NCBI RefSeq assembly: GCF_004762035.2
Contig: NZ_SIJK02000026.1
Span: 1 to 64,000, forward strand
Source: Candidatus Chloroploca mongolica
Lineage (GTDB): Bacteria > Chloroflexota > Chloroflexia > Chloroflexales > Chloroflexaceae
Length of the DNA stretch: 64,000 nucleotides
Reading direction: 5' to 3'
The notes beneath the pieces were generated by a model. That model saw nothing but the letters and a program-made list of their open reading frames with translations, searched no databases and had not been told where the DNA came from. A program made the translations under genes and the position numbers. Within the stretch, counting starts at the first letter, position 1. Each line of letters begins with the position of its first letter. This document shows positions 6,899-62,121 of the stretch, one piece after another.

Positions 6899-7043
6899 CG
6901 GGCTAGCCCCAAGACCTTGCAAATAAGGCGGCTATTTTGACGCAAAGGCGCAAAGGCGCAAAGGTTTTTGCGTAGGTGAGCTTAACCCTTCGCGCCTTCG
7001 CGCCTTCGCGTGAGCTTCTTTGCAAGGTCTTGGGGCTAGCCCA
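6899..7043. mobile_element. MITE family A copy 1 (121 bp) with decayed 12-bp target duplication
   Basis: The element spans about 6911-7031. Its ends are perfect inverted repeats (AAGACCTTGCAAA at 6911, mirrored by TTTGCAAGGTCTT ending at 7031). The interior holds GCGCAAAGG direct units on the left and CGCGCCTTCG units on the right, so it can fold as a long hairpin. The flanks CGGGCTAGCCCC (6899-6910) and GGGGCTAGCCCA (7032-7043) match at 10 of 12 positions, consistent with an aged target-site duplication. The remaining intergenic bases (6689-6898 and 7044-7215) hold nothing I recognise. Confidence 0.65.
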
Positions 7044-7919: not shown

Positions 7920-8043
7920 GGTCTGTAGTGCCGACTTCCGTCGGCTGAGCCGGACGCCGTCTGATGAAGATGCAATCGTCCAGCGGGTCTGTAGTGCCGA
8001 CTTCCGTCGGCTGAGCCAGAAGCCGACGGAAGTCGGCACTACC
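7920..8043. repeat. Chloroflexota-type palindromic repeats (family C) with a fragment of a MITE B end
   Basis: A 32-base unit containing TAGTGCCGACTTCCGTCGGC occurs twice in direct orientation (7920-7951 and 7986-8017). The second copy pairs with a downstream inverted copy, giving 22-bp perfect arms (7991-8012 and 8021-8042) and a potentially very stable hairpin. Between the copies, about 7967-7980, AGATGCAATCGTCC matches the terminal repeat of MITE family B with one change, suggesting nested insertion. It could act as a terminator for the hemolysin-III transcript, but no T-run follows. Confidence 0.7.
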
Positions 8044-8332
8044 TGCGGGGCGATTGCATCTTCCGTGTATGCACCCCGCGAGGGCACCCGCGAGGGGTGC
8101 CCCTACACCGGGCCCGCCCCCGCCCCGGTACGGGCACCCCTCGCGGGTGCCCCGCCCCGGTACGGGCACCCCTCGCGGGTGCCCCGCCCCGGTGTACGGG
8201 CACCCCTGGCGGGTGCCCCGCCCCGGTGTACGGGCACCCCTGGCGGGTGCCCCGCCCCGGTGTACGGGCACCCCTGGCGGGTGCCCCGTTGTATCCGATT
8301 TCGTATGATGCAATCGCCCTAGCACTCCCTGA
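8035..8332. mobile_element. MITE family B copy 1, expanded by GC-rich tandem repeats
   Basis: The element runs from about 8047 to 8320. Its outer ends are GGGGCGATTGCATC at the left and GATGCAATCGCCCT at the right. The interior carries five tandem units of 32-34 bp (about 8133-8290), each holding the small palindrome GGGCACCCCTxGCGGGTGCCC. The flanks GGCACTACCTGC (8035-8046) and AGCACTCCCTGA (8321-8332) match at 9 of 12 positions, a plausible decayed target duplication. Open frames here, rich in APARGAPTPGP-like strings, are artefacts of the repeat. Confidence 0.7.
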
Positions 8333-8925: not shown

Positions 8926-9172
8926 GTTTGCTTGACCAGGGCGATTGCATCATACGAAACCGGATAAAAAAATACGCTCTCTGTGGCAGCATGTGCATGC
9001 AACCAGCGGCGCAAACGGCGGCCCCGGCCCTTGTAGGGGCACCCCTTGCGGGTGCTCTGGTGGGGTACAGGGCCGGGGGCCGGGCCTGGTGTACCCCGGT
9101 GTACGGGCACCCCTTGCGGGTGCCCTGGTGGGGTGCATGCACGAAAGATGCAATCGCCCTGTTTGCTTGACT
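8926..9172. mobile_element. MITE family B copy 2 with 12-bp target-site duplication
   Basis: The element is 8938-9160 (223 bp). Its ends are AGGGCGATTGCATC at 8938 and GATGCAATCGCCCT ending at 9160, 14-bp perfect inverted repeats. The flanks GTTTGCTTGACC (8926-8937) and GTTTGCTTGACT (9161-9172) are direct repeats matching at 11 of 12 positions, a clear target duplication. The interior has two inverted modules around GGGCACCCCTTGCGGGTGC. It sits between arsC and the 3' end of mobA and encodes no credible protein. Confidence 0.85.
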
Positions 9173-16562: not shown

Positions 16563-16766
16563 GCGGGAGAAGAAGCAGGGCGATTGCATCATACGAAATC
16601 GGATACAACGGGGCACCCGCAAGGGGTGCCCGTACAGGGCCGGGGGCCGGGCCCGGTGTAGGGGCACCCCTTGCGGGTGCCCTTGCGGGTGCCCTTGCGG
16701 GCACCCCTTGCGGGTGCCTTGGCGGGGTGCATACACGAAAGATGCAATCGCCCTAGGAGAAGGAGG
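16563..16766. mobile_element. MITE family B copy 3
   Basis: The element 16575-16754 (180 bp) has perfect 14-bp terminal inverted repeats (AGGGCGATTGCATC / GATGCAATCGCCCT). Its interior has GGGCACCCGCAAGGGGTGCCC-type palindromes and four short GTGCCCTTGCGG direct units. The flanks GGGAGAAGAAGC (16563-16574) and AGGAGAAGGAGG (16755-16766) match at 9 of 12, an eroded target duplication. It inserts between the P-ATPase leader and the tRNA operon terminator. Confidence 0.78.
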
Positions 16767-18925: not shown

Positions 18926-19624
18926 ATGCCGACGATGTATGAGATCTACGCCCAGTTCGCCCCCGAGTACGATGCGCTGGTGACCCATGAGGATTATCAG
19001 GGTCAGTTGAAGGACACCTTACATAGCCTCTATGATATTACGAACAAAGATGTGGTTGAGTTTGGCGTTGGCACAGGCCGAGTGACGGCCATGTTGGTCG
19101 AAAAAGCCAGGCACATCACCTGTTGTGATCGTTCGCCCCATATGCTGGCCTATGCCCAGCAGAAGTTGCAGGCCTATGCCGACAAACTCGCGTTTGTACA
19201 GCGCGATAACCTGGAACTGAACCGGGTTGAAGGCCAGGTTGACTGCGTGATCGAGGGGTGGAGCTTTGGGCATACGGTGCTTGATCATCCTGATACGATG
19301 GACGACGTGATTGATCACCTCGTGGCAGCGTGCGCTTCGCTTGTGCGTCCCGGTGGCGTGGTAATCCTGATCGAAACAATGGGTACCATGGTCGAAGACC
19401 CGGCCCCCCCGCTCGCCGAACTCGCCCACTTCTATGCGCGGCTCCGTGACCAGCACGGCTTTGCCGAACACGTGATCCGCACCGATTATGCCTTTGCTGA
19501 TGATGAAGAGGCCGCCAAGATCATGGGCTTCTTTTTTGGCGAAGAGATGCGCGAACAGATCCTCACCACCCGTCAAGCCATCATTAAAGAGTATACCGGG
19601 GTGTGGATCAAAACGATCACCTGA
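18926..19624 (+). CDS. Class I SAM-dependent methyltransferase
   Basis: 232 residues; AGAGG lies eight bases before ATG 18926. Motif I is VVEFGVGTGRVTAML. The acidic end of strand 2 is ITCCDRSPHML, and VDCVIEGWSFGH and RPGGVVILIETMGT complete the Rossmann core. It transfers methyl groups from S-adenosylmethionine to an unknown small molecule; there is no RNA- or DNA-specific motif. It is followed by a MITE and then an SCP2 protein on the same strand. Confidence 0.82.
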   Translation: MPTMYEIYAQFAPEYDALVTHEDYQGQLKDTLHSLYDITNKDVVEFGVGTGRVTAMLVEKARHITCCDRSPHMLAYAQQKLQAYADKLAFVQRDNLELNRVEGQVDCVIEGWSFGHTVLDHPDTMDDVIDHLVAACASLVRPGGVVILIETMGTMVEDPAPPLAELAHFYARLRDQHGFAEHVIRTDYAFADDEEAAKIMGFFFGEEMREQILTTRQAIIKEYTGVWIKTIT

Positions 19625-19798
19625 CTAACGCACCAGGACTTTTGCAAAGTCGTTGGGCTTGCGCCCCAAACCCCAGTTTTTGGTTCGTGTTGGCGGCTTC
19701 GCCGCCAACACGAACCAAAAAACATCTCCGGGAGTGGCGAAGCCGCTCCACACCCCACCGCCGGAGGCGAACTTTGCAAAAGCCCTGACTGACGCACC
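19623..19798. mobile_element. MITE family D with 12-bp target-site duplication
   Basis: The element is 19635-19786 (152 bp). Its terminal inverted repeats are AGGACTTTTGCAAAG (19635) and CTTTGCAAAAGCCCT (ending 19786), one mismatch. The interior contains a GGCGGCTTCGCCGCC palindrome within mirrored TTGGTTCGTGTT arms. The flanks GACTAACGCACC (19623-19634) and GACTGACGCACC (19787-19798) match at 11 of 12: a clear target duplication. A related but decayed copy is at about 41.48-41.65 kb. Confidence 0.82.
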
Positions 19799-41480: not shown

Positions 41481-41650
41481 GGGACTTTCCTGCAAAGAGG
41501 AGATTTCTGGGGCTTCGCCCGTGCCGTGGGCGGCAACCCTGGGTGCCCGCGTGCGCGGGCACCCAGGCTGTTGGGCTTGCGCCCCACACCCCAGGTTTTG
41601 CTTTGTTTTGGCGGCTTCGCCGCCAAAACAAAGCAAAAATCTCGTAGAGC
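41481..41650. repeat. Decayed family D element upstream of nfeD
   Basis: GGGACTTTCCTGCAAAG (41481-41497) resembles the family D terminal repeat. The interior shares GTTGGGCTTGCGCCCC and the GGCGGCTTCGCCGCC palindrome, with mirrored TTTTGCTTTGTTTTGG arms, and adds a GGGTGCCCGCGTGCGCGGGCACCC hairpin-like block. No target duplication remains. It lies between divergent nfeD and the deoxyhypusine-synthase-like gene. Confidence 0.6.
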
Positions 41651-44661: not shown

Positions 44662-44812
44662 CAGGGCACCCGCAAGGGGTGCCCCTACAGGTCGGCCGGG
44701 CCGTCGTGGTGGTGTGCGCGGCCCCGGCGCACCCCGGCGGGGGCCGGGCCCGGTGTACGGGCACCCCTTGCGGGTGCCCTGGCGGGTGCATACACGGAAG
44801 ATGCAATCGCCC
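44662..44812. mobile_element. MITE family B copy 4, one end missing
   Basis: The right terminus is intact (GATGCAATCGCCC, 44800-44812), preceded by the family's GGGTGCATACACGGAA. The interior has GGGCACCC palindromes from 44663. The left terminus with AGGGCGATTGCATC is absent; the element abuts the antitoxin remnant directly, so a deletion joined the two. Confidence 0.7.
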
Positions 44813-44829
44813 AAACCTGTCAAGACTGG

Positions 44830-61976: not shown

Positions 61977-62121
61977 CCCTTAGACGCAATACCTTGCAAA
62001 GAAGGCGGCTCTTTTGACGCAAAGGCGCAAAGGCGCAAAGGCGCAAAGGTTTTTGCGTAGGTGAGCTTAACCCTTCGCGTCTTCGCGTGAGCTTATTTGA
62101 AAAGTATTGCCCTTAGACGGA
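61976..62121. mobile_element. MITE family A copy 2 with 12-bp target-site duplication, inside an operon
   Basis: The element is 61988-62109 (122 bp), with imperfect terminal repeats AATACCTTGCAAAG and TTTGAAAAGTATT. The interior has four GCGCAAAGG-type units and inverted CGCGTCTTCGCG units. The flanks GCCCTTAGACGC (61976-61987) and GCCCTTAGACGG (62110-62121) match at 11 of 12: a clear target duplication. The duplication begins at the last base of the NTF2-like gene 1 stop codon. Confidence 0.8.

Follow-up and report, generated by a model that had tools for sequence, protein, structure and literature searches.

Do three MITE families that share one size of target duplication also share one transposase? 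The question is raised by a 64,000-nucleotide stretch of Candidatus Chloroploca mongolica (the window, meaning the whole stretch analysed here), for which an earlier note had described families A, B and D as unrelated MITEs with 12-bp direct flanks and had proposed a single, perhaps IS4-like, transposase type for all of them. We followed the three families through the host genome, a 6.3-Mb draft assembly of 160 contigs, and into related genomes.

MITE families A, B and D and their flanking duplications

The window copies of all three families have terminal inverted repeats at their ends and direct repeats on either side, which bears out their description as MITEs. The family D copy (positions 19634-19787, plus strand, 154 bp) has the ISAs1-type ends CAGGACTTTTGCAAAGTC / CAGGGCTTTTGCAAAGTT and lies between the duplications actaacgcac (19624-19633) and actgacgcac (19788-19797), which agree at 9/10 positions. 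Family A is represented by two plus-strand copies of 123 bp. The copy at 6910-7032 has IS4-type ends (CAAGACCTTGCAAA..) and is flanked on both sides by gggCTAGccc (6900-6909 and 7033-7042), while the copy at 61987-62109 has ends CAATACCTTGCAAA.. / CAATACTTTTCAAA.. and is flanked by cccTTAGacg (61977-61986 and 62110-62119), so that both show a 10/10 flank match (GGGCTAGCCC; CCCTTAGACG). Three family B copies retain both ends: 8937-9161 (plus strand, 225 bp, ends CAGGGCGATTGCATC; tttgcttgac at 8927-8936 and 9162-9171), 16576-16755 (plus strand, 180 bp; ggagaagaag / ggagaaggag at 16566-16575 and 16756-16765) and 8046-8321 (minus strand, 276 bp; gcactacctg / gcactccctg at 8036-8045 and 8322-8331), with flank matches of 10/10, 9/10 and 9/10, respectively. 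The last of these contains internal tandem GGGCACCC hairpin units. In addition, the window holds a truncated family B copy lacking the left end (44664-44813, plus strand) and an interior stretch of a family D relative, without ends (41570-41639, plus strand). Family B interiors consist of units of about 34 bp (GTACGGGCACCCCTGGCGGGTGCCCCGCCCCGGT) in tandem, which form a hairpin-forming GGGCACCC array whose unit number differs among copies; in the window, such stretches occupy 8090-8290, 9030-9130, 16610-16720 and 44664-44790. The earlier note had stated that the window holds no transposase; a genome-wide search with the DDE_Tnp_1 profile gave no match to that one profile on its contig, C79.

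Each family is dispersed genome-wide. Among the matches listed, which derive from the best 40 candidates scored and for A and B are lower bounds or include several pieces per copy, scored matches number at least 45 for A, at least 77 for B and 38 for D. Genome-wide searches with the end patterns (≤2 mismatches) returned 172 A, 316 B and 226 D hits, whereas the reversed control gave 13, 15 and 41, respectively. The three families resemble bacterial MITEs in being short, non-coding and present in many copies, in having terminal inverted repeats and a target duplication, and in sharing their ends with a full IS; we saw no difference in kind. A tandem pair of family A MITEs occurs on contig C149, with about 20 bp between the two and a separate 10-bp duplication for each (L035 1501-1767; C149:142826-143091). 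Our literature search, whose coverage was incomplete, turned up no account of MITEs from Chloroploca, Roseiflexus or Chloroflexus.

We then compared unique copies with both ends flank to flank (32 A, 29 B and 26 D among the matches listed, which came from the best 40 candidates scored and from pattern listings of up to 100 places). At a length of 10 and with at most one mismatch, the flanks of 22 A, 14 B and 9 D copies matched in the genome-wide length scan, versus 2/992, 2/812 and 0/650 mis-paired flanks; scanning lengths 6 to 14 gave matches at 10 alone and none at 9, 11 or 12 in any of the three families. Position-wise comparison gave the same picture, in that the inner 10 positions agree between flanks in 79-100% of copies in every family, while positions 1 and 12 of the earlier 12-bp frame agree in just 39-50%. 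The outermost bases are fixed per family (C/G in 27/28 A and 10/12 D copies, Y/R in 19/19 B copies). In the 12-mer, the outer two bases belong to the element, as its terminal pair (C...G, or Y...R in B). Inclusion of this terminal pair, together with targets that happen to continue it, accounts for the apparent 11/12 and 10/12 matches. The 12-bp flank is thus a phasing error, and both the position-wise matching and the length scan rule out a 12-bp duplication; A, B and D all duplicate 10 bp of target. What stands of the earlier claim is that one length is common to A, B and D, far above chance, and that it does not vary between families genome-wide.

The targets themselves differ. Family A inserts at a palindromic core, Y-T-A-R, at positions 4-7 of the duplication (nnnYTARnnn; 1.1-1.7 bits per position). 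Family B has no strong preference; in family D, a weak preference falls on positions 2 and 9 (0.62 bit, only 12 copies).

Probable ISAs1-type partners of families B and D

The view of the three families as unrelated held for A, which is separate, but not for B and D, whose ends are both of the ISAs1 type (CAGGGC...). ISAs1 elements are described as having inverted repeats starting with CAGGG and 10-bp direct repeats, the latter observed at new insertions in Frankia (PMC11946415). For family B, the matching ISAs1 carries YAGGGCGATTGCATC at both ends. We found it in both relatives of the host's genus, as a 1233-bp element with one stop in the gene (G015; L297) and as a broken element of about 0.77 kb (G014; L317), and in G023 with a 9/10 duplication (L298). 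Related ISAs1 elements in other relatives have 10/10 duplications (L293, L294, L299, L310 and L313).

For family D, the end-types assigned to the partner are CAGGGCTGATGCAAAGTC / CAGGGCTTGAGCAAAGTC. Thirteen host contig ends break off about 35-55 bp into an element whose end, CAGGGCTGATGCAAAGTC, occurs in two versions, and two further contig ends break inside a related end, CAGGGCTGATGCAAAGTCCCGAG. Of these 15 contig ends, 14 can be joined into seven paired insertions, all with perfect 10-bp duplications. Judged from these contig ends, D-type ISAs1 is multicopy in the host genome but unassembled. One version of the end codes for ..AAIDRLLFRA* at the contig edge, and in relatives D-type ends bound an IS of about 1310 bp whose transposase has the C-terminus AAIDRLLFR and belongs to ISAs1 by NF033564. 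The host genome also contains a complete D-like ISAs1 (C84:7160-8486; ends CAGGGCTTGAGCAAAG; duplication ctgccgcgtg, 10/10). The window D ends agree with both end-types at just 15/18 positions. As a D partner, we also considered an IS1182-type open reading frame beside a D-type end (C69:70448) and rejected it, its own ends (GATACTGCTGGCAA) looking inserted within the D-type end. This IS1182-type element and a short relative, both with GATACTGCTGGCAA ends, lie inside or against D-type ends and are apparently nested there (L322 949-976 on C69; L324 1471-1677 on C139).

The partners of B and D thus resemble the ISAs1 family in their CAGGG ends, in the domain pair DDE_Tnp_1_assoc and DDE_Tnp_1, in their 10-bp duplications and in transposases scoring above the NF033564 cut-off (183-350 bits; cut-off 70). 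They differ in that the B end-type takes C or T as its first base, and the B and D MITEs differ from ISAs1 in carrying no gene.

In the host draft genome, we found no complete B-type ISAs1 and no B-type transposase; because of this, family B may be an orphan there, or may be moved by another ISAs1. Such a role might fall to the host's multicopy D-type element, with one ISAs1 transposase moving both B and D: the ends of the two families have their first six bases, CAGGGC, in common, and only D-type and C84-type ISAs1 were seen in the host genome. We nevertheless consider one enzyme for both families unlikely, since in same-genus relatives the B ends are matched over 14-15 positions by an ISAs1 end-type distinct from the one that matches the D ends. 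We favor two ISAs1 end-types, one for B and one for D.

A probable IS4-type partner of family A

The family A ends (CAATACYTTKCAAATAAG) are matched by an IS4-family IS, which is intact in two relatives and a relic in the host genome. In G030 it is 1482 bp long, with ends CAATACCATTCAAATAAG and the 10/10 duplication tctttacgac (L247); a second 1482-bp copy with the same ends occurs in G004, with the 9/10 duplication gttctaaagc / gctctaaagc (L276). The G030 transposase has 483 aa, contains Nterm_IS4 (PF13006, 72 bits) and DDE_Tnp_1 (PF01609, 52 bits), and belongs to the IS4 family by NF033592 (198 bits; cut-off 115). The window family A ends agree with the IS4-type ends at 14-17/18 positions. 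A-type ends are widespread in the family, with matches in 27/41 genomes at a permissive threshold (E ≤1).

The IS4 subgroup is described as having -AATR--------WTW ends, a length of 1400-1650 bp, direct repeats of 10-13 bp and the transposase motif Y-(2)-R-(3)-E-(6)-K (PMC2266710). The A partner fits in its ends (CAATA...ATA), its 1482 bp, its Nterm_IS4 and DDE_Tnp_1 domains and its 10-bp duplication, a length that 28 family A MITE copies also show. It departs from the subgroup in the YREK motif region (YHERWESELVIDEIA), where Y, R and E are in place and A stands instead of K, and in the YTAR core within the duplication. The family A copies, moreover, carry no gene.

The host draft assembly contains no intact A-type IS4 transposase, only a relic and unassembled ends. 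The relic, on C156, is the N-terminal part of an IS4 transposase adjoining an A-type end in a YTAR target. Three contig ends (C102, C111 and C146) break inside an element with CAATACCTTTCAAATAAG ends beside YTAR targets; C111 and C146 have the common 10-bp target GATCTAAACC next to an A-type element, one end of which shares CTGTGGCATACT..GAGTGCT with the G030 IS. G014 contains a 188-bp deletion derivative that joins both A-type IS ends, and the element at C111/C146 could be a similar derivative of about 188 bp. A 797-bp element with A ends on C74 (L118) was discarded as a partner, as by eye it contains low-complexity repeats only and no transposase-like frame.

An IS701-like element on C117 starts with CAATACCTT, its first nine bases being identical to the A ends, and might be taken for the enzyme source of family A. 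The ends diverge past base 9, however, and the IS701-like copies lack both a YTAR flank and any 10-bp duplication. IS701 produces 4-bp duplications (PMC2266710), in contrast to the 10 bp of family A, and we regard this assignment as very improbable compared with the IS4-type partner.

The core of the A-type target varies between two relatives of the same genus. In G039, A-type elements with identical 18-bp ends lie in CATG cores (13 exact and 17 CATG-like, of 25 ends) and in YTAR cores (6), while in G040 they lie in YTAR cores only (9/9). The loci are L238, L255-L262 and L326-L339 in G039 and L235, L269, L274 and L340-L344 in G040; some G039 duplications look 11 bp long. Tentatively, the A-type IS4 might be a transposase with a strict palindromic nnnYTARnnn core that in G039 uses both YTAR and CATG cores as if its target specificity had changed and its end recognition had not, a reading that we hold to be possible rather than probable.

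Transposase families behind a common duplication size

The idea that one IS4-like transposase moves A, B and D drew on the duplication size, which is indeed equal in all three families, and the host genome does have IS4-family transposases. Yet the ends are wholly different, CAATAC in A versus CAGGGC in B and D; each end set has its own full-length IS, of a different family; and the target preference differs, being a strict YTAR in A and almost none in B and D. The earlier note had itself named separate matching autonomous elements of different IS families as what would speak against a single transposase type, and such elements are what we found, by NF033592 for A and by NF033564 for B and D. 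By this measure, one IS4-like enzyme for all three families is already refuted, and we give it hardly any probability. The part of the proposal that survives is the involvement of an IS4-like transposase in family A; for B and D, the matches are to ISAs1.

Movement of family B by an IS4-type, IS10-like transposase on C21, where a PF01609 open reading frame is flanked by a left and a right B end, is scarcely credible, as this frame belongs to a distinct 1227-bp IS with ends CTCAAAGGGTTTCACC, which lies within the B element and has a duplication of 11 bp there (AGGGGTGCCCC); in Ca. Chloroploca sp. Khr17 and Ca. Viridilinea, this IS occurs with no B element around it. We therefore rejected the element at C21:813-2214 as the B partner; its own CTCAAAGGG ends and its own duplication show that an IS has become nested within a B MITE. 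This IS10-like member of the IS4 family (ends YTCAAAGGGTTTCACY) sits in a hairpin arm of the B MITE (L096 882-2108), with further loci at L291 1439-2665 and L290. Its transposase is 98% identical to the host copy in Candidatus Chloroploca sp. Khr17, where the IS has a 10-bp duplication, and 94% identical in Candidatus Viridilinea mediisalina. Another IS4-family IS of the host genome, with TATAGGCGCGAACTTA ends and the 11-bp duplication gtacgctggcc, lies across a sigma-factor-like open frame (L092 1192-2670 on C68).

A, B and D are thus very probably non-autonomous MITEs that depend on at least two different DDE transposases acting in trans, IS4 for A and ISAs1 for B and D. This model is built on sequence comparison, with shared ends and duplications as the basis for mobilisation in trans, presumably by cut-and-paste. 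Each enzyme would recognise its own ends of about 15-18 bp, and the target strands to which it joins the element would be cut with a 10-bp stagger. Family A would be moved by an IS4-family transposase of the IS4 subgroup into nnnYTARnnn targets, and families B and D by ISAs1-family transposases with two end-types (YAGGGCGATTGCATC; CAGGGCTGATGCAAAGTC / CAGGGCTTGAGCAAAGTC) and little target preference.

That the three families agree in duplication size is a coincidence, two enzymes each giving 10 bp, and not the mark of one transposase. Because IS4 and ISAs1 are both known for duplications of about 10 bp, equal duplication size does not imply a common enzyme. For three MITE families that are abundant in a Chloroflexota lineage, our analysis names partners, and it illustrates that contig breaks in a draft assembly can be paired by their 10-bp duplications, which places an unassembled IS. 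Finally, the contrast between YTAR and CATG targets among sister species could offer a way to locate the determinant of target choice in IS4 transposases.
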